From: Myxococcales bacterium
GTDB taxonomy: Bacteria; Myxococcota; B64-G9
Assembly (NCBI GenBank): GCA_012798435.1
Contig: JAAZNF010000032.1
Location: 1 to 33,523 of the forward strand
Direction: 5' to 3'
DNA length: 33,523 nt
Of this stretch, positions 8,173-27,224 are shown piece by piece (within the stretch, counting starts at the first letter, position 1; every line of letters starts with the position of its first letter). The notes under the pieces are model-generated. The model was given only the letters and a program-made list of their open reading frames with translations, searched no databases and had not been told where the DNA came from. The position numbers were made by a program, and so were the translations under genes.

Positions 8173-11100
8173 TCAGGGAGGGTAGATGAAGTTCGTGCCG
8201 TTGATGTCCGAGGCCTCGAGCGTGATCTTGCTGGCGTCGCAGTAGTCCACCGCGTAGTACATGGTGGCGTCGATCTGCGCGGCGTGGTCGAGGCCGATGA
8301 AGTGCCCCTGCTCGTGAGTGGCCACGCCCTCCATGTCGAACACCTGGGTGGCGCAGGCCGCCGCCTGGGCGTTGGTGCCGAAGGGCATGCCATCGTTGAA
8401 CACGATGTCGGAGTCCACCATGCGGTTGAAGGTCACGCCGTTCGTCACCATGGTCTGACTGTCGTAGATGGGCAGCGTGGCCGCGATGGCGCCCGAGGGC
8501 ACCTCGCCGGTCGGGTCGTTGAAGGTCATGGTGTTCAGCCCGTCGTAGACGTACCCGGCCGGACCGGTCTGGCTGTCCTCGACGAAGGCGATGGTGGCCG
8601 GGGTCACGGCCTGCCAGTGGGCAAAACCGTTTCGCACCGCCACCTTGTCCTGGCCGGCGGGCATGCCCGGCTGGGTGCCCGAGGCGAAGCGGTAGTGGAC
8701 CGGGATGTTCGCCGGGAACCACTTTCGCGCCGGGTTGAGCAGCACGAAGGCGTCGTCGCCGATGGTCACCGTCGCCGGCCCGGCCACGTTGTTGTTCTCG
8801 TTCGACTCGCTGATCTGGACCAGGGTGTCGACCTGCACCCAGGACTTGTACGTCCCGGGATCGGCGCCGGGGAGCTGGAGATCGTAGGGGATGGGCGTGC
8901 CGCGCAGGATGCCCGTCGGGGTGTTGTTCCAGTCGCCGTTCACGTTGGTTCCGGGCGCGGTCTCGCGGTTGAGGTAGAAGTCCACTCGGAAGGGCGAGAA
9001 GAGATCGATGTTGCCGTTGTTGACCACCTCCCAGTGCCAGATGATGTCCGAGCCGGCCAGCGTGGCGGTGAAGTTCTGGATGCCGAGATCGACGTAGCCG
9101 CCCTGGATCACCAGCGGGAAGTAGTCGCGCCAGGTGGTGGTGCCATCGGTGATGTCGATCTGCATGATGAACTGGTAGGCGGTGGAGGTGTTCGACACCG
9201 TCACCACGAACGGGTCGGTGGCCGCCTTGGTGCCGTTGGCCGGCACGGTGCCGAAAGCGGCGCTGCCGTCGCTCACCGTGACGTCGGTGGTGGTCGAGGT
9301 CAGCGTGGCGGTGACGTTGCTGGCTGCGATGGCGCCGTCGTTGGCCACGGTCACGGTGATGTTGGCCGGGGTCCCGCGCACCACCGGCGAGGGGCTGGTG
9401 GTGTGCGAGGCGTAGCGCAGCTCGGTGGCGGCGCAGCCCTTGGGCCGGATGATCATGGAGACGTACATCGGTGACCAGGCGCCGGTGGAGGCGGGCTTCA
9501 CCACGCCGTTGTACCAGGAGGCCGGGCTGGCCTGCGAGTTGCCGTCGTCGGACAGGATGGCGAAGTACTCCAGGCCGCTCTGGTCGCTCTCAGACTGGAT
9601 GGTCGCCCAGAAGGTGTCGCCGTTCTTGAAGGTGAGCGCCGGGCTCACCGGGAAGTTGACCACGAACTGGTTGGAGCCGGACACGGTCACCCAGTTCCCG
9701 GTGTAGAGGGTCTGGTCGGGGAGCCCCGCCCGGTAGGTGTAGATCTTGAGGCGGAAACGGCGTGAGGTCGGGCTGGACACCGTCTTGTAGAAGGTCACGT
9801 CCACCGAGCGCAGGGCGAACGAGGCCGAGTCCACCACGAAGTAGTTGCCCACCTCGTCGTTGGCGGCCTGCGGGATGACGTAGGTCGGGGTGTTGTCGTC
9901 GGTCTGGAGGGTGCGGTTGTCCGCGGTGCAGCCGGTGCCCTGGACGTACACCCCGAAGCCGTCGGACCAGTTGTGCGGGCCGTCGGTGCTGTCCAGTCCC
10001 AGGCCATAAATGCCGAAGGCCGAGGAGGTGGCCTGGATGGCGAAGTTGGGGTTGTTGTTGGCGGTCGCGCCCACCGCGATGGTGCCGTAGCTCGCGCTGC
10101 CGGTGGTCATCACCACGTCCGCGTCGGGGGAGGAGAGGGTGCCGGTGACGCTGCCCGTGGCCGCGTAGCCGCGGTTGCGCAGCGGCGCCTGGATGGTGGC
10201 GGTGCCGCCTGCGGGGACGGTGGCCGGGGTCTGGGTGTGCGAGGCGAGCTTCAGCCACGGGCCGTCGGCGCAGCCCTGGGCGCGGACCATGGCGTTGACA
10301 CCGATGGAGTAGTAGTCGCGCGGGTTGCCCGAAGGCGTGAAATACGCCACCCCGCCGATGTACGGGTCGAGGATGCCGCCGTCGAACAGCGGCAGGTATT
10401 GATCGGTGCTCTCGTCGTCCTCGGAGCGCACGGCTACCCAGAAGATCTGCCCGTGGGTGAAAGACACCGGCGCACTCAGGGTGAAGGTGGCCCAGGTGAT
10501 CTGCTGCTGCTGGTCGGCGCAGGTGCCGGTCACGTTGAGCGTGGAGACGGGGCTCGAGCCTACCTCGGTCCCGGGCTTGCCGTTGTCGTCGGCGAAGATA
10601 CGCGCCGAGTAACGGCCCTGGTTGGTGCCGCTCGCGCAGGCCACGTCGAAGAAGGCCGCCTTGACCGCGAACACCTTGTAGGCCTCGGCCTCGACGAAGA
10701 AGCCGTTCAGCACCATGTCGCCGGCCGCCAGGGGAACGATGGAGTAGGCGACGTCGTTGTCGATGATGAGCTCGGCGGTGGCGTCGATGGCGGTGCAGCT
10801 CGCACAGCCCTCGTCCACGATGTCGTTGCAGTTGTCGTCGAGGGAGTTTCCGCACACCTCGGCCCGGCCCGGGTAGATCTGGGGGTTGGTGTCGTTGCAG
10901 TCGGTGCCGCCGCAGGCCCGGTCGCCAAAGGTGTCGCCGTCCTGGTCGCGCGGGCTGCCCACGCACTGGCCGCCGGTGCAGGTGTCGCCGGTGGTGCAGG
11001 CGTTGCCGTCGTCGCAGGGGCCGGTGAGGTTCTGGTACTGGCAGCCGCTCGAAGGAACGCACGAGTCCTGGGTGCACACGTTGTTGTCATTGCAGTCGCG

Positions 11101-12711
11101 CGCCGTGCTCTGGCAGGTGCCGCTCACGCAGGCGTCGTTGGTGCAGGCGTTGTTGTCGGTACAGGTATTGGTGTTGTCGTTGACGAACACGCAGCCGCTG
11201 GCGGGGTTGCACGAGTCGTCGGTGCAGGGGTTGTTGTCGTTGCAGGTGATGGCGCTGCTCTGGCAGGTGCCGCTCACGCAGGCGTCGTTGGTGCAGGCGT
11301 TGTTGTCGGTGCAGGTGTTGGTGTTGTCGTTCACGTACGTGCAGCCGCTGGTCGGGTTGCACGAGTCGTCGGTGCAGGGGTTGCTGTCGTTGCAGGTGAG
11401 CGGGGTGCCGGCGACGCATACGCTGTTTTGGCAGGTCTCGGTGCCATTGCACACGTTGTTGTCGCTGCAATCGGAGTTGTTGGTGCACTGGCGGCAAGTG
11501 GAGTCGGCGGTGTCGGTGGCACCGTCACAGTCGTTGTCGATGCTGTCGCTGCAGGTGGGGGTGCCCGACGGTCCCTCGGTCGCGCCCGGGTTCACCGCGA
11601 CGTTGTTGTCGTTGCAGTCGTTTCCGCCGCAGGAGGTGGGCACGTAGTGATCGCCGTCCTGGTCCAGCGGCACGCCGTGGCACTGGCCGCCGGCGCACAC
11701 GTCGTTCATGGTGCAGGCGTCGCCGTCGTCGCAGGTGTTGGTGTTGTTGGCGTGGGTGCAGCCGGTCTGCGGGCTGCACGAGTCGGTCGTGCAGGGGTTG
11801 TTGTCGTTGCAGTCCGGGCCGGCGCCGGGGACGCACTGGCCGCCCGAGCACTGATCGCCCACGGTGCAGGCGTTGCCGTCCTCGCAGGGGCTGGTGTTGT
11901 TCGCGTGCTGGCAGCCGCTCTGCATGTCGCAGGTGTCGTCGGTGCAGGCATTGCCGTCGTTGCAGTTCACCGCCGAGCCGCCCTTGCACACGCCGCGCTC
12001 GCAGGCGTCGTTTTCGGTGCAGGCGTTGTGGTCGTCGCACGTCGCGGTGTTGAAGGTGTGCACGCAACCCAGCGCGTCGTCGCAAGAATCGGTGGTGCAG
12101 GGGTTGTTGTCGTCGCAGTTGGTGCTGGAGTCGCCGGTGCACACGCCGTCCTGGCAGTGGTCGTTGGTCGAGCAGGCGCGGTGGTCGTCGCAGGCGACCG
12201 TGTTGTTGGTGTGGACACAGCCGCGGCCCGGATCGCAGGCGTCGTCGGTGCACAGATTGCTGTCGTCGCAATCGAGGACCTGGCCGCCGCCGCAGGCGCC
12301 GTTCTGGCAGAACTCGCCGTAGGTGCAGGCGCTCCCGTCATCGCAGGCGAGGCTGTTGTTGACGTGGGTGCAACCGGAGGTGTCCGAGCAGCCGTCGGTG
12401 GTGCAGGGGTTGCCGTCGTCGCAGTTCTGGGAGGCGCCGCCGATGCACACCCCGTCCTGGCAGTGGTCGTCGGTGGAGCAGGCCTGGCCGTCGTCGCACG
12501 GCACGCTGTTGTTGACGTGGGTGCACTTCTCGCTGACGCAGTCGTCGTTGGTGCAGGGGTTGCCGTCGTCGCACTGGCTGGCGGTGGTGCACTCGGCCAC
12601 GTGGCCATCGAAGCCGTCGTGGCCGCTGTCGGCCGGGGTGTTGGTGCCGCCGCCGCAGCCGGCGGCGATCAGCAGGAGAGCCGAGAAGATGGAAAGCAGG
12701 GTGGTTTTCAT
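8173..12711 (-). CDS. Giant Cys-rich lipoprotein with C-terminal metzincin (matrixin-like) protease domain
   Basis: A 1512-residue protein. The N-terminus is a lipoprotein signal with an Ala-Ala-Gly-Cys lipobox near residue 19. Residues about 40-640 hold ten Cys-rich units of about 50 residues each, built on C-D/N-D-x-N-x-C-T-x-D-x-C, resembling the Dictyostelium CTDC repeat. Two MopE-type metal-binding motifs, DQDGD..CGG-DCND..CDG/CND, follow units 6 and 10 (near 354 and 594). Next come beta-sandwich segments with repeated asparagine/glycine-rich strands, a CARDB-like adhesion domain (about 1205-1310) and a zinc protease domain (about 1320-1512). The protease has the full metzincin signature HEQGHFIGLDH with ligands His1466, His1470 and His1476, catalytic Glu1467 and Met-turn Met1484. 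The start at 12711 follows AAGGAG at 7 bases. It is the last gene of a tight three-gene unit. The function is inferred to be a surface-anchored, disulfide-stabilised metalloprotease; the substrate is unknown. Confidence 0.92.
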   Translation of the reverse strand: MKTTLLSIFSALLLIAAGCGGGTNTPADSGHDGFDGHVAECTTASQCDDGNPCTNDDCVSEKCTHVNNSVPCDDGQACSTDDHCQDGVCIGGASQNCDDGNPCTTDGCSDTSGCTHVNNSLACDDGSACTYGEFCQNGACGGGQVLDCDDSNLCTDDACDPGRGCVHTNNTVACDDHRACSTNDHCQDGVCTGDSSTNCDDNNPCTTDSCDDALGCVHTFNTATCDDHNACTENDACERGVCKGGSAVNCNDGNACTDDTCDMQSGCQHANNTSPCEDGNACTVGDQCSGGQCVPGAGPDCNDNNPCTTDSCSPQTGCTHANNTNTCDDGDACTMNDVCAGGQCHGVPLDQDGDHYVPTSCGGNDCNDNNVAVNPGATEGPSGTPTCSDSIDNDCDGATDTADSTCRQCTNNSDCSDNNVCNGTETCQNSVCVAGTPLTCNDSNPCTDDSCNPTSGCTYVNDNTNTCTDNNACTNDACVSGTCQSSAITCNDNNPCTDDSCNPASGCVFVNDNTNTCTDNNACTNDACVSGTCQSTARDCNDNNVCTQDSCVPSSGCQYQNLTGPCDDGNACTTGDTCTGGQCVGSPRDQDGDTFGDRACGGTDCNDTNPQIYPGRAEVCGNSLDDNCNDIVDEGCASCTAIDATAELIIDNDVAYSIVPLAAGDMVLNGFFVEAEAYKVFAVKAAFFDVACASGTNQGRYSARIFADDNGKPGTEVGSSPVSTLNVTGTCADQQQQITWATFTLSAPVSFTHGQIFWVAVRSEDDESTDQYLPLFDGGILDPYIGGVAYFTPSGNPRDYYSIGVNAMVRAQGCADGPWLKLASHTQTPATVPAGGTATIQAPLRNRGYAATGSVTGTLSSPDADVVMTTGSASYGTIAVGATANNNPNFAIQATSSAFGIYGLGLDSTDGPHNWSDGFGVYVQGTGCTADNRTLQTDDNTPTYVIPQAANDEVGNYFVVDSASFALRSVDVTFYKTVSSPTSRRFRLKIYTYRAGLPDQTLYTGNWVTVSGSNQFVVNFPVSPALTFKNGDTFWATIQSESDQSGLEYFAILSDDGNSQASPASWYNGVVKPASTGAWSPMYVSMIIRPKGCAATELRYASHTTSPSPVVRGTPANITVTVANDGAIAASNVTATLTSTTTDVTVSDGSAAFGTVPANGTKAATDPFVVTVSNTSTAYQFIMQIDITDGTTTWRDYFPLVIQGGYVDLGIQNFTATLAGSDIIWHWEVVNNGNIDLFSPFRVDFYLNRETAPGTNVNGDWNNTPTGILRGTPIPYDLQLPGADPGTYKSWVQVDTLVQISESNENNNVAGPATVTIGDDAFVLLNPARKWFPANIPVHYRFASGTQPGMPAGQDKVAVRNGFAHWQAVTPATIAFVEDSQTGPAGYVYDGLNTMTFNDPTGEVPSGAIAATLPIYDSQTMVTNGVTFNRMVDSDIVFNDGMPFGTNAQAAACATQVFDMEGVATHEQGHFIGLDHAAQIDATMYYAVDYCDASKITLEASDINGTNFIYPP
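11108..11407. repeat. 150-bp tandem duplication within the Cys-rich repeat region
   Basis: Two adjacent 150-bp copies, 11108..11257 and 11258..11407, encode units 9 and 8 of the metzincin lipoprotein. Long blocks are identical at the nucleotide level, whereas other units of the same protein agree only in the Cys and Asp pattern. This indicates a recent in-frame duplication of one complete repeat. Confidence 0.7.
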
Positions 12712-21837: not shown

Positions 21838-22938
21838 TTGTCCACCGCCAAAGAATACTACCAGGTCCTGGGCGTCGAGCGCACCGCCTCCGAGGACGAG
21901 ATCAAGCGGGCCTACAAGAAGCTCGCCTTCCAGTACCACCCCGACCGCAACCCCGACTCCCGAGAGGCGGAGGAGAAGTTCAAGGACGTCGCCGAGGCCT
22001 ACGCGGTGCTCTCCGACCCGGAGAAGCGCCGTCTGTACGACGCCTACGGCCATGAGGGCCTGCGCGGCGCGGGCATGTCACCGGGATTCTCGTCGGTGGA
22101 GGACATCTTCTCGAGTTTCGGCAGCATCTTCGAGGACCTGTTCGGCTTTGGCATGGGCGGCCGGGGCCGCCGCCGAGGCCGGGGGCGCGGGGCCGATCTC
22201 CGGCTCCAGATGGAGATCTCGCTCGCGGAGGCGGTCTCGGGCCTGGAGCGGGAGATCATGGTGCCCCGCCTCTCGACCTGCCCCGAGTGCCAGGGGGGCC
22301 GCGCCGCTCCCGGCAGCTCGCCGCGAACCTGCCCGGCTTGCCGGGGGAGTGGCCAGCAGGTGCTGCAGCACGGGTTCTTCACCATGAGCACGCCCTGCCA
22401 GCGCTGCGGCGGTTCCGGCGAGTTCCTCGACCAGCCCTGCCCGCGCTGCCGGGGCGCCGGCCGCATCGAGGAAGAGCACAAGGTAATGGTGACCATCCCG
22501 CCCGGGGTGGACGACGGCACCCGCCTGCGCCTCAGCGGCGAGGGCGAGGCGGGCCCCCCCGGCGGCACGAACGGCGATCTGTACGTGGACCTCCGCGTCT
22601 TGGAGCACCCCCGCTTCGAGCGCGACGGCGTCACCTTGCACACCGAGGCCGAGGTGGACTTCGTCAAGGCCATCCTCGGCGGCGAGATCGAGGTCGAGCT
22701 CATCGAAGGCAAAAAGACCGTCTCCGTCCCGCGCGGCACCCAGCCCGGCGACACGCTGGTGATCCCGGGCGAGGGAGTCCCCTACCTGCGCCGGCCCGGG
22801 CGCGGCGACCTCGTCGTTCACCTCAAGGTCACGCTGCCGAAAAAAATCAGCGGCGAACAGGAAGAGTTGCTGCGCCGCTACGCCGAGCTTTCCCAGGTCG
22901 CAGTCAAGAAGAAGAAGAAGGGTTTCTTCGGCGGCTGA
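21838..22938 (+). CDS. dnaJ: DnaJ-family co-chaperone
   Basis: A 366-residue type I J-protein. The J domain (5-70) has the His34-Pro35-Asp36 motif needed to stimulate DnaK ATPase. A Gly/Phe region follows (about 80-118; [17 protein letters not shown]), rich in Arg. Four zinc-binding repeats lie between 148 and 208: CPECQGGR (the first, with its final Gly replaced by Arg), [16 protein letters not shown] and CPRCRGAG. The C-terminal substrate-binding domains include [18 protein letters not shown] and a second [18 protein letters not shown]. The start is a TTG at 21838, directly after grpE, with GGGA about nine bases upstream. The last 35 bases overlap the convergent gene; the Lys-rich end ([10 protein letters not shown]) is written on the strand opposite to that gene's Ser-rich end. 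Confidence 0.93.
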
Positions 22939-24880
22939 GGCGCCGGGCCAGGGCGAGCAGGGGGAGAGCGGCCAGCCAGGGCAAAACCTCGGGCCCCGCC
23001 GGTCCCGGCCCGCAGCCGCACCCCGCGTCGGGCGTCCCGGTCTGGAGGTAGGCCGTGACCGAGAGGTTGAGATGCCGGGCGAGGGCGAGTGCGTCCGCTT
23101 CCTCCCCCTGGTAGAGCCAGAACACCCACTGGACTTCCCCGTCCGGATCGAGGGTCTCGTCCACGAAGCGCACCCGGTCGTCCAGCCGGAACGTCGCCGC
23201 CACGTGCACCGTGTCCGTCTGCTGGATCAGCCACAGCCCCTCCCGCAACCGCACCAGGCCGGCCGGGAGCGGCAGGGAGATGCGCCCCTCCTCGAACGCG
23301 AACGAACCCGCCGGGTAGCTCACCACCCGATCCTCCACCAGGCCGGGCATGAGGTCGAACCCATCGGCGTCCGTATGGGGGAACACCACCGAAAGCTGTC
23401 GCTCACCGTTCTGCGGGGGCGAGACCGTCAGGGTCAGCCGGTAGAGGTTGTCCTTGCCCCCCAGGCGCTCCCACTGCTCGTGTACCGTTCTCCCCGGGGC
23501 CTCGACCAGGTAGCCATCCGCGGCGGTGAGGAGCGCGGCCACGGCATCGCTCTGACCGAAGGGGAGGTCATCGACCGGTGCCACCGTTCCCCGCTCGGTG
23601 TCCACCTCCAGGTAGGGGCCGCCCATGCCGGGGGTGAGCTCGTCGATGATGGCCTGGGCGCAGCGCTGGGCCTCGCCGCCGTGGAACAGGCCGTACTGCA
23701 CCTCCTTGAGGAAGGGGTTGATGCCGCTGGCGTCCGACACCTGGGCCCACAAGAGGTGCCGCAGGCACTCGAACCAGCGCTCACGCAGGCTCCCGGTCTC
23801 GATGAGCTCCTGTTTTTCGGCGTGGGCGATGACCGTCTCGGCCACGCGCAACCAGTGGTGGGCCACGGTGTTCTGGGTGAGCACCTGGTTGTCGCGCTCG
23901 CAGCCGTAGGCGAGATCGAGGAGCCCGGAGGCGCCCAGCCAGCGTTTCATGCTGTCGGTGCTCTGCGGCTGCCAGGTCCCGTCCAGCATGCGGGGAAGCT
24001 CGGGGAGCGGCAGGTTCTGGGCCTCGAGGTAGCCCACAAAGTCCGTGATACCGGCGATCTCGAACCCCCGCGCCTCGGCGTCGAGCAACTCCTGCTCGTA
24101 GGCGGCGATGGCAGAATCGCTCTTCTGGAACGCCTTGCCCATGTAGGGCGCCTGGCCACCGGTGGCGAGCAGTTCGCCGTCGTCGAAGAAGTTCCACTCC
24201 ACCTCGACCTGGGGCGTGGCGAAGGAGCGGCCCAGCAGCACCACCGTGCTCTGCCCGAGGGAGAACGCCGCCGGGGCGGTGTCGAGCGCGCCGGCGTGCT
24301 GGTAGCGGAAGAGGTTCTTCGACAGGCCCAGGATGGTGCGCCCGCGCCGAGCCAAAAACTCCGCCATCCCCTCCCCGAACTGGCCCTCCTGCGCGAACAC
24401 CACCGGCCCGGGCGAGAACCCCACGCTGGCGAAGACCTCGTCCATGAGGTCGAACGACCACTCCATGCCGCGGCGCGGGTAGGCCAGCAGCAGCTGGTCC
24501 GAGTAGTGGACCGATGACAATTCCGCCCGCCCCGCGTCCACGAGCTGCTTCAGCTTGGCCAGCACGCCGGGGTGGCGCTGCTGCATCACCTCGACCATGT
24601 AGGCCTGCATCTCCAGGTTGACCTTCCAGCCGGGGTGGGCCAGGAATAGATCCAGCACCGGCTCGAAGCTCTCGGTGATGATGAGGTCCTCCACCGCCTC
24701 GTGATCGAGGTCGAAGTCGGGGTTCTGGTCGTGGCCCGAGGGGAAGCCCTGCAACCCGCCCGGGACGTACTGCAGGTTGAAGTGGAACATGGAGAGCGAG
24801 AACTTGCGGGGGGTCTGGGCCTGCACCGGGGCCGAACCGGCGAGCATCACCAGAAAGAGCGCCAAGATACGTTCTGCCAT
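22904..24880 (-). CDS. Secreted MYXO-CTERM protein with GH57/GH38-like barrel
   Basis: A 658-residue protein. A signal peptide ends at Val-Gln-Ala near residue 21. Residues about 25-330 resemble a glycoside hydrolase/deacetylase-type barrel of the GH57 or GH38 group: [12 protein letters not shown] near the start, [33 protein letters not shown] and [18 protein letters not shown], whose Glu is a candidate for the catalytic acid/nucleophile region. A beta-rich C-terminal half (about 440-610) follows. The final 41 residues are a MYXO-CTERM sorting signal: Gly-Cys-Gly-Cys, Gly/Pro, a hydrophobic stretch ([11 protein letters not shown]) and RRLSRRR. This predicts processing and surface anchoring by the myxobacterial sorting system. 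Good GGAGG ribosome site. It lies 27 bases after the ALDH homologue, probably in one operon. The exact sugar activity is unknown. Confidence 0.8.
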
Positions 24881-24907: not shown

Positions 24908-26410
24908 TCAGCGAGGGAAGGGCCGCCGACGCGGCTCGCGCTCGGGGCCCGCGCCCAGGAGCAGCGAGGAGACGGGTTGGGTGCAGTTGCGCTGGCCGAA
25001 GATGCCCCCCGGCCGGTTGTTGCCGCAGCGGTTGGCGCCGCCGAGCGGCAGCCGCATCGAGATCTCGGTGGTGCCCAGGTTGTGGTTGACAAGGCCATAG
25101 CGCAGCCGCCCCGCCACTTCCTCGAAGCGCTTGCCGTCGCGGGTGAACACCGCCGCGGCGAAACCGAACCGCGTCAGGTTGGCGAGCCGCAGCGCCTCCT
25201 CGTCCGTCGCCGCCGGGAGCAGCAGCGCCTGGGGGCCGAAGAACAGGTCGTCGGGCGCAAAGCGCTCCCGCTCGGCGGTGCGCTCGAGGAGGTACACGCC
25301 CGGCGACAGGTAGTAGCCGCGCCGGGAGAGCGAAAGCGGCTCCGCCCGCAGCAGGGTCTTCACCCCCAGCGCCACCAACCGCTCCTGCATGTCCAGCGAG
25401 CGATCCCGGGCGGACTCGGAGAGCAGCGGCCCCAGAAACACCCCGGGCTCGAAGGCGTAGCCCACCTTGAGCCGGCCGACCTTCTCCACGAAGGCGTTGG
25501 CGAAGCGCTCGAACACCGATTCCAACACGATGACGAGCCGCGTCGAGCTCATGCGCTGCCCGGCGCTGAGGAAGGCCCCGCACACCGTCTCGAAGACCGC
25601 GTTGTCCAGATCGGCGTCCTCGAGCACCAGCGCGGCGTTCACCCCTCCCATCTGCAACGCCACCAACTTGTGCGGCTGGGACATGGTGGCCTCGAGGATA
25701 CGCCGGCCGGTGGGGTAGGATCCGGTGACCAGCACCCCCGCCACCTCGGGGTGCGCGGCCAGCGCCGCCCCGGCGGCGGCGTCGCCCTGGATCATGTTGA
25801 ACACCCCCGGCGGCGTCTCGATGTGCTCGAACAGGCGGGCCAGCCACTGGCCGCAGGCCGGCACCAACTTGCTGGGCTTGAACACCACGCAGTTGCCAGT
25901 GAGCAACGCCGGCAGGATGTGGGCGCACGACAGGGACAGGGGCGACACCGCCGAGCCGAGGACCGCCACCACGCCCAGCGGGCGGAAGCGGCAGGTGCCG
26001 GCCACCCCGTGGCGGATCTCGCTCACCCGGAAGGGGTTGACCATGCGCACCCCCTCGCGGATCTCGATCTCCGCCTGGGCCTCCAGCGCGGCCACCTCCT
26101 CCTCGGCCTCGAACAGGGGCCGGCCGGTCTCGGCGGCGATGACGTCGCGCAGCTCGCGCCGCCGGTTCACCACCTCGGCCGCGAACTTTCGCAGCAGGTT
26201 GGCCCGGTCCCCCGGCTCCAGCGCGGCCCAGGCCGGCTGCGCCGCCGCCGCCGCCACCACCGCTTGCGGCACGTGATCCGGGTAGGTGGGGAAGGCTCCG
26301 ATGCGGTAGCCCACGTCGCCGGGATCGCGCGAGACGATCTTGCGGCGCGCGCCGGGAGGCCGCACGAACCGGCCGTCGAGGTAATCGCCCAGGACTTTGA
26401 CCGAGATCAT
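24908..26410 (-). CDS. Aldehyde dehydrogenase homologue lacking the catalytic residues (putative pseudoenzyme)
   Basis: A 500-residue protein of the ALDH superfamily, most like succinylglutamate-semialdehyde dehydrogenase (AstD) in layout. The fold is intact: FKPSK (Lys178), TGSYPTGRRI and a C-terminal oligomerisation region. The key residues are changed. The oxyanion Asn (NFP in active enzymes) is Val155, the general-base Glu is Gln253 in LQMGGVN, and the catalytic Cys is Met287 in AGQRMSST. The spacing of 34 residues between the last two sites equals that between Glu268 and Cys302 of mammalian ALDH2, so the alignment is secure. The ExFGP motif reads LFFGP. I infer that it cannot oxidise aldehydes by the normal mechanism. 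A regulatory, binding or structural role, or an esterase-like function, remains open. GAGGAAG ribosome site; divergent from dtd. Confidence 0.9.
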   Translation of the reverse strand: MISVKVLGDYLDGRFVRPPGARRKIVSRDPGDVGYRIGAFPTYPDHVPQAVVAAAAAQPAWAALEPGDRANLLRKFAAEVVNRRRELRDVIAAETGRPLFEAEEEVAALEAQAEIEIREGVRMVNPFRVSEIRHGVAGTCRFRPLGVVAVLGSAVSPLSLSCAHILPALLTGNCVVFKPSKLVPACGQWLARLFEHIETPPGVFNMIQGDAAAGAALAAHPEVAGVLVTGSYPTGRRILEATMSQPHKLVALQMGGVNAALVLEDADLDNAVFETVCGAFLSAGQRMSSTRLVIVLESVFERFANAFVEKVGRLKVGYAFEPGVFLGPLLSESARDRSLDMQERLVALGVKTLLRAEPLSLSRRGYYLSPGVYLLERTAERERFAPDDLFFGPQALLLPAATDEEALRLANLTRFGFAAAVFTRDGKRFEEVAGRLRYGLVNHNLGTTEISMRLPLGGANRCGNNRPGGIFGQRNCTQPVSSLLLGAGPEREPRRRPFPR

Positions 26411-26420
26411 GACCGCTTCC

Positions 26421-26451
26421 TCTATACCAGAGGACCCGCTACGAGTACAAT
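26421..26451. promoter_or_regulatory. Overlapping divergent promoters for dtd and the ALDH homologue
   Basis: Plus strand: TACAAT at 26446..26451 is a good -10 for dtd, with only a weak -35 (TATACC, 26423..26428). Minus strand: TTGTAC (26450..26445), 18 bases, TATAGA (26426..26421) would serve the ALDH gene with a very short leader. A 6-bp dyad, TCCTCT-atacc-AGAGGA, covers 26419..26435. The assignment is weak. Confidence 0.3.
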
Positions 26452-26469
26452 CGGCCCGGGAGGTGGCGC

Positions 26470-26955
26470 ATGCGCGCGGTCATCCAGCGGGTGCTTCGGG
26501 CCGAGGTGGTGGTGGACGGCGGGCCGGTGGCCCGCATCGAACGGGGCCTGCTCGTGCTGCTGGGGGCGGGGCGGGGCGACACCGAGGAGCAGAGCCGCTG
26601 GATGGCCGACAAGGTGTGCCGCCTGCGCGTTTTCGAAGATCCGGGCGGCCGCATGAACCTTTCGGTCACTGAAGCCGGGGGCCAGATCCTGTGCGTGTCG
26701 CAGTTCACGCTCTATGGCGACTGCCGCAAGGGCACCCGGCCCTCCTTCACCGGCGCGCTGGAGCCCGAGGCCGCCCGCGCTCTCATCGACCGGTTCGCCG
26801 CCGAGGTGCGCGCGCGCGGCATCGCTTGCCACACCGGCGTGTTCGGGGCGCACATGCAGGTTGTGCTGGTCAACGACGGGCCGGTGACGTTGCTCCTCGA
26901 CAGCACCGTGCCGCGCCGCGACGGCAGCGGCGGCTTCGGCGAGGGCCCGGAGTAG
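26470..26955 (+). CDS. dtd: D-aminoacyl-tRNA deacylase
   Basis: A 161-residue cytoplasmic enzyme that hydrolyses D-aminoacyl-tRNA, and so keeps D-amino acids out of proteins. The N-terminus MRAVIQRVLRAEVVVDG, the SQFTLYGDCRKG motif and the C-terminal NDGPVTLLLDS (the Gly-Pro-Val-Thr cross-subunit motif) are diagnostic for the DTD family. Normal length for a DTD is about 145-150; this one ends in an extra tail (VPRRDGSGGFGEGPE). GGGAGG lies just upstream of the ATG. It is divergent from the ALDH homologue. The D-cysteine desulfhydrase-like gene at 30734 also concerns D-amino acids, but is not in the same transcript. Confidence 0.95.
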   Translation: MRAVIQRVLRAEVVVDGGPVARIERGLLVLLGAGRGDTEEQSRWMADKVCRLRVFEDPGGRMNLSVTEAGGQILCVSQFTLYGDCRKGTRPSFTGALEPEAARALIDRFAAEVRARGIACHTGVFGAHMQVVLVNDGPVTLLLDSTVPRRDGSGGFGEGPE

Positions 26956-27010
26956 CCCCCGGTCGGCTACGCGGCCGCCACCATGTTCTCAAGGCGGCGA
27001 CATCGATGAG

Positions 27011-27224
27011 CAGCCGCGCCTCCGGATACCCGTTCGCGGCGCGCCAGGCGAGTCCTCTATGTAGCGGAGCCGGCTTGGCGGCGAGCAACTAAGAGGACTC
27101 GCCGGTAGGCAGCTGCGCCTCCGGCCACCCGTTCGCGGCGCGCCAGGCGAGTCCTCTATGTAGCGGAGCCGGCTTGGCGGCGAGCAACTAAGAGGACTCG
27201 CCGGTAGGCAGCCGCGCCTCTGGC
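27011..27224. repeat. 99-bp tandem repeat with internal 12-bp inverted repeat
   Basis: Two nearly identical 99-bp copies (27011..27109 and 27110..27208) and a third partial copy (27209..27224) fill the spacer after dtd. Each full copy contains GGCGAGTCCTCT and AGAGGACTCGCC, perfect reverse complements separated by 33 bases (27047..27058 with 27092..27103; 27146..27157 with 27191..27202). The copies differ at only a few positions. The 55 bases before the array (26956..27010) hold nothing I recognise. It could be a dispersed mobile or structured repeat, or act as a terminator pair for the converging dtd and lipoprotein genes. Confidence 0.85.

Follow-up and report, generated by a model that had tools for sequence, protein, structure and literature searches.

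An AstD-derived aldehyde dehydrogenase-fold protein without its catalytic residues is conserved across a Myxococcota lineage

Background

The arginine succinyltransferase pathway starts with AstA. AstD, N-succinylglutamate 5-semialdehyde dehydrogenase (succinylglutamate-semialdehyde dehydrogenase), is represented by E. coli AstD and by the structures PDB 3ju8 and 4kna.

Two members of the aldehyde dehydrogenase (ALDH) fold have been described that lack catalytic residues. Human ALDH16A1 is missing its whole catalytic triad and has been proposed to be a binding protein (PMC10650815; PMC8160307). In GRM1 microcompartment loci, a second ALDH has its catalytic Cys mutated to Ser or Pro and has been suggested to serve as a scaffold or regulator (PMC4207490).

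Here we describe a 500-residue ALDH-fold protein, pseudo-AstD, encoded in the window, that is, the whole stretch of 33,523 nucleotides of Myxococcales DNA that was analysed. The features discussed are collected in Table 1.

Table 1. Coordinates in the window of pseudo-AstD, its neighbors and the residues and motif discussed in the text
Feature	Coordinates	Strand	Basis
pseudo-AstD, 500-aa ALDH-fold protein without catalytic Cys, Glu, Asn	24908..26410	-	ORF, PF00171, AstD models, AlphaFold2 model
DPGDxGYRIGxF, residues 29-40, lineage-specific invariant motif, N-terminal beta hairpin	26291..26326	-	Invariant alignment columns
Val155, oxyanion Asn169 position	25946..25948	-	N in 43/43 active relatives; V/I/A/S in lineage
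Lys178, equivalent to ALDH2 Lys192 (cofactor ribose contact), retained	25877..25879	-	Invariant in lineage and active relatives
Lys181, ALDH2 Glu195 position (adenosine ribose contact)	25868..25870	-	K in 8/8 lineage; E or D in 43/43 active relatives
Gln253, general-base Glu268 position	25652..25654	-	E in 43/43 active relatives; Q/T/H/A in lineage
Met287, nucleophile Cys302 position	25550..25552	-	C in 43/43 active relatives; Y/M/L/A in lineage
Leu389, Glu399 position (nicotinamide ribose contact)	25244..25246	-	E in 43/43 active relatives; L/Q/M/I in lineage
658-aa protein, signal-peptide-like N-terminus, C-terminal hydrophobic/Arg tail	22904..24880	-	Downstream neighbor, not conserved partner
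Divergent intergenic region, 59 bp	26411..26469	.	Contains promoter-like extended -10 TGGTATAG
D-aminoacyl-tRNA deacylase (DTD), divergent neighbor	26470..26955	+	TIGR00256, 167 bits (cut-off 101.5); synteny

Results and discussion

Fold and family placement

The reading frame of pseudo-AstD is intact from its ATG start, with the coordinates and strand given in the initial annotation, which had been made from the sequence alone. Its membership in the ALDH superfamily follows from both its fold and its profile score, residues 45-478 matching PF00171 with 319.4 bits (cut-off 23) in a profile search. The best curated models in NCBIfam are two AstD families, TIGR03240 (304.5, cut-off 579.3) and PRK09457 (318.9, cut-off 514), and the protein stays below the cut-off of each. 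This shortfall alone is not decisive, because a triad-bearing relative from Bdellovibrionota also fails to reach the two cut-offs (452 and 465). The closest solved structures by sequence are the AstD-type entries 3ju8, 4kna and 5u0l. An AlphaFold2 model computed with an alignment of 22 sequences (mean pLDDT 88.7, pTM 0.89) gave, in a Foldseek comparison, top hits that were all ALDHs, with AstD 4kna and 3ju8 as the top PDB matches at a TM score of about 0.9.

When 87 ALDHs are placed in a maximum-likelihood tree, the triad-less proteins described below, eight in number, form a single clade (SH-aLRT 100) on a stem of 0.93 changes per column. This clade is nested within an AstD-type clade (SH-aLRT 100) that includes E. 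coli AstD, as expected of AstD descent. The window protein is an AstD descendant, yet not AstD by function.

Catalytic and cofactor residues

With the ALDH2 numbering carried over by motif anchors rather than by structural superposition, the alignment bears out the initial assignment of Val155, Gln253 and Met287 to the columns of Asn169, Glu268 and Cys302, together with the spacing of 34 residues between the latter two window positions. The cofactor-site Lys (Lys178) and the TGS-x2-TG loop, here TGSYPTG at 229-235, are kept, as had also been noticed at the outset. Beyond what was recognized then, Glu399 is lost (Leu389), the charge at the Glu195 position is reversed (Lys181), and Pro153 and the aromatic residue at 154 are gone from the window protein as well.

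In our genome set, the family, order and class of the window organism consist of the same nine genomes, each its own genus, and we refer to these as the lineage. All nine carry an orthologue (50-59% identity), one of which ends at a contig end before the catalytic region, leaving eight, the window protein included, that cover the sites. The Asn, Glu and Cys of an active enzyme, replaced by V, Q and M in the window protein, are all lost in 8/8 of these orthologues; they are intact, together with Glu399, in 43/43 active-type relatives, a tally of AstD-type sequences drawn from other Myxococcota and from Bdellovibrionota. Because the loss is seen in every orthologue that covers the sites and in none of the active-type relatives (0/43), chance is excluded. 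An orthologue with normal Cys, Glu and Asn was sought inside the lineage, and none was found among the eight. The loss is therefore universal in the lineage, though the replacement residues vary: the Cys position holds Y (five proteins), M, L or A, the Glu position Q (five), T, H or A, and the Asn position I (three), A (two), S (two) or V. With the triad lost and the protein still conserved, the lineage proteins fit the description of pseudoenzymes, and the original suggestion of a conserved non-catalytic protein rather than one in decay gains support from the breadth of this loss.

Across the phylum (195 Myxococcota genomes), matches at E<=1e-55 occur in 62 further genomes, and the weaker ones among them are ordinary ALDHs outside the AstD clade. 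One AstD-type protein outside the tally of 43, from the Myxococcales MAG JAEUJZ01 (L030:5920-7521), has kept the catalytic Cys, and Met and His replace its Asn and Glu; it is possibly a separate, partial degeneration, independent of the lineage.

The cofactor site has been altered unevenly. Among the adenine-side contacts, the equivalents of K192, P193, G225, G245 and G250 are invariant in the lineage, and that of S246 is kept in 7/8. The adenine half of the site is kept, with a Glu-to-Lys change at the Glu195 position in 8/8, and the nicotinamide half is dismantled. In ALDHs, Glu195 hydrogen-bonds the adenine ribose, and active ALDHs with no acidic residue there and with basic residues nearby favor NADP (PMC8160307).

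Redistribution of sequence conservation

Synonymous and non-synonymous changes (NG86) gave dN/dS below 1 in every pair, at 0.13-0.71 where finite, but these values are only indicative, as several pairs are saturated at synonymous sites, GC3 is biased and codon bias lowers apparent dS. Because of this saturation and codon bias, we relied on column conservation instead. There are 74 positions that are at least 95% conserved in the active relatives, and 53 of the 74 persist in 85% or more of the triad-less clade. Seven of the 74 are absent from the whole clade, namely the columns of N155, N162, E253, K257, C287, S291 and E389 in window numbering. All four of N169, E268, C302 and E399 in ALDH2 numbering are contained in these seven columns, for which our own arithmetic gives a chance of 3e-5.

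At matched divergence (mean column identity 0.557 versus 0.552), the segments 141-160, 221-300 and 441-480 around the catalytic cleft are relaxed relative to the active sets. Residues 1-40, 61-80, 101-120 and 321-340 are tightened, most strongly in 1-40; the conservation of segment 21-40 is 0.73 in the lineage versus 0.40 in active relatives of equal divergence. The N-terminal 140 residues differ from the rest with Mann-Whitney P values of 6e-9 to 2e-4 across four comparator sets, to be read as indicative since alignment columns are not independent, and 2 to 7 of 484 circular shifts were as extreme. Within this region, the lineage members share an invariant 12-residue stretch, DPGDxGYRIGxF, which is not invariant among the active relatives. 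No opposite-strand gene in the window overlaps the stretch, the DTD gene beginning only at 26470, so overlap does not explain the N-terminal conservation. These alignments show that conservation has shifted away from the catalytic cleft and towards the N-terminal region. Oligomer contacts, rather than a new partner, could account for the N-terminal tightening.

Loss of the ancestral pathway

In Bdellovibrionota and several Myxococcota families, the genes of the active relatives immediately follow AstA, in many cases with an M20 peptidase and, for Bdellovibrionota, with a class-III aminotransferase upstream; these loci are ast-like clusters. AstA (PF04958) is present in 148/195 Myxococcota genomes and was found in 0/9 lineage genomes, six of the nine reaching 90% completeness or more with contamination of 5% or less. 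With AstA absent, the window lineage does not have the Ast pathway, and we therefore conclude that the pathway was lost and an orphan AstD descendant was kept.

Neighboring genes and promoter

The initial annotation had named as likely operon partner a MYXO-CTERM barrel protein, the product of the 658-aa gene 27 bp downstream. That partnership is not supported, as its 51-57%-identical orthologues lie on a different contig in six other lineage genomes, and the two genes are adjacent only in the window. The 658-aa protein has no Pfam or NCBIfam match. In another genome (G001), its orthologue (C110:6397-8319) adjoins two unrelated ALDH genes (C110:8366-9760 and 9916-11016), which is probably a coincidence.

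On the other side, the divergent DTD gene is found at 7/8 lineage loci and is absent from this spot in G008. It is the sole conserved neighbor found adjoining pseudo-AstD in the window. Several genomes have DTD within a longer conserved block. In the window and in G006, the pair of pseudo-AstD and DTD is present, and the remaining block was not found beside it. Much of the synteny common to these loci is a matter of inherited block structure, and DTD as a functional partner of pseudo-AstD is a lead only.

Within the intergenic region, the extended -10-like element TGGTATAG lies at 26422-26429 on the minus strand. A TGNTATA-like element is seen near the start in most orthologue loci when the upstream sequences are compared by eye, an observation made post hoc; a consensus promoter scan of these sequences gave no sigma-70 match. 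The shared element suggests that transcription may have been maintained. The good ribosome site claimed initially is present as GAGGAA upstream of the ATG, but it may not be on the transcript: TGGTATAG is so close to the ATG (12-19 bp) that the leader could be very short.

Other features of the window and its genome were recorded. Positions 27010-27207 hold two tandem copies of a 99-nt unit, and in each copy a 19-nt loop is enclosed by a 19-nt inverted repeat (GGCGAGTCCTCTATGTAGC / GCAACTAAGAGGACTCGCC). The unit has 44 matches dispersed through the genome (77-100% identity), some of them paired about 99 bp or 290 bp apart, and is a REP-like or mobile hairpin element. At 8173-12711 on the minus strand, a 1512-aa protein carries eight Dictyostelium CTDC cysteine-rich repeats, a CARDB domain and a C-terminal matrixin (M10) protease-like domain. 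On contig C100 of the same genome, a PduP/EutE-type CoA-acylating gene (L003:973-2445, 634 bits) is the sole other ALDH-fold gene found, and may belong to a bacterial microcompartment locus.

Competing explanations

That the lineage conserves a protein without ALDH activity is, on the alignments, very probable. Recent mutation, decay, mis-assembly or sequencing error could also cause a loss of catalytic residues, but such an origin is barely conceivable and is ruled out by the orthologue set: the frames are open in independent assemblies from eight genera, with 50-71% identity, 53 of the 74 deep invariants are kept, new invariant positions have been gained, and a promoter-like element recurs at most orthologue loci. 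Only marginally more credible, and still highly improbable, is a dehydrogenase that remains active by way of other residues, for example a migrated thiol. The fold and the cofactor Lys are retained, but the lineage columns contain no newly invariant Cys, and Asn169, Glu268 and Glu399 are missing besides the Cys. It is very unlikely that the protein serves an active ALDH as a regulatory or structural subunit within a hetero-oligomer. In favor of such a role, it retains the fold and many structural invariants, and an inactive ALDH2 variant subunit does affect heterotetramers (PMC10211241); however, there is no common ALDH partner across the lineage, because the window genome has one other ALDH-fold locus only, of the PduP/EutE type, and no other ALDH was found in G008.

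A neofunctionalized enzyme, in which the cleft runs another reaction without Cys302 and Glu268 (such as an isomerase-, hydratase- or transfer-type reaction on a dicarboxylate or CoA-like ligand), is unlikely, although it would account for the newly invariant polar residues K181, Y35, R36, N82, R84, E114, R237, Y318, D340 and Q473, and for the retention of much of the AstD C-terminal GNxRP motif, R466 included. If the cleft housed a new active site, tight conservation would be expected there, whereas segments 141-160, 221-300 and 441-480 are relaxed, and the residues in the active-site columns differ from genus to genus (Y/M/L/A; Q/T/H/A; V/I/A/S). A bolder proposal, which we rate as slightly more doubtful, is that the cleft was rebuilt, either as an NADP-/CoA-type nucleotide sensor coupled to translation proofreading via DTD or as an enzyme with a chemistry unknown for the ALDH fold.

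We lean moderately towards an AstD-derived pseudoenzyme that combines a non-catalytic role with an adenine-nucleotide ligand and an N-terminal partner face. Such a pseudoenzyme would have arisen once, in the common ancestor of this Myxococcota lineage, from a dehydrogenase of the AstD type; the same lineage lost the arginine succinyltransferase pathway, and the gene would have been kept since for its non-catalytic role. The old cleft may bind a phosphorylated adenine nucleotide (NADP(H) or similar), a ligand we propose because a Lys sits at the 2'-OH side; Lys181 could instead fill the pocket rather than bind phosphate. The newly constrained N-terminal face would contact a partner, and the protein would act as a ligand-gated scaffold or sensor. 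We give this specific ligand-plus-scaffold mechanism an even chance of being right.

Comparison with known systems

Bacterial pseudoenzymes are rarely seen with a clear before and after state. Here, sister lineages still hold the ancestral type in active form, together with its operon and pathway; in the window lineage the pathway is gone, the orphan persists and constraint has moved. The lineage kept a gutted pathway enzyme for a new, probably non-enzymatic job, and with a defined orthologue set the purpose of a dead metabolic enzyme becomes testable. The case is also a warning for annotation: such genes score as confident ALDHs, and would be miscounted as an arginine-catabolic or aldehyde-detoxifying capacity that the organism lacks.

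AstD is the best match to the window protein in sequence and structure, belongs to the same clade and shares much of the C-terminal GNxRP motif. Unlike AstD, the window protein lacks the Cys, Glu, Asn and Glu399, has a Lys in place of Glu/Asp at the adenosine-ribose site, lies outside any ast cluster and scores below the NCBIfam cut-offs. Human ALDH16A1 is likewise an ALDH fold without the whole triad, but ALDH16 is described in the literature as having an extra C-terminal non-functional cofactor-binding domain, whereas the window protein is a bacterial, single-domain AstD derivative. The two would thus have independent origins. The second ALDH of GRM1 loci is, like the window protein, a bacterial ALDH with a mutated catalytic Cys. 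In that ALDH the change is Cys to Ser or Pro, and an active ALDH accompanies it in the microcompartment locus, whereas the window protein has lost four catalytic or cofactor positions and has no such context: its neighbors are DTD and the 658-aa protein, and no microcompartment genes were recognized among the neighbors scanned. We found no report, in the open-access literature, of a pseudoenzyme that descends from AstD and is fixed throughout a lineage following the loss of its pathway. Dead ALDHs are already a known kind of protein, and within that literature a lineage-wide case derived from AstD after loss of its pathway appears to be new.
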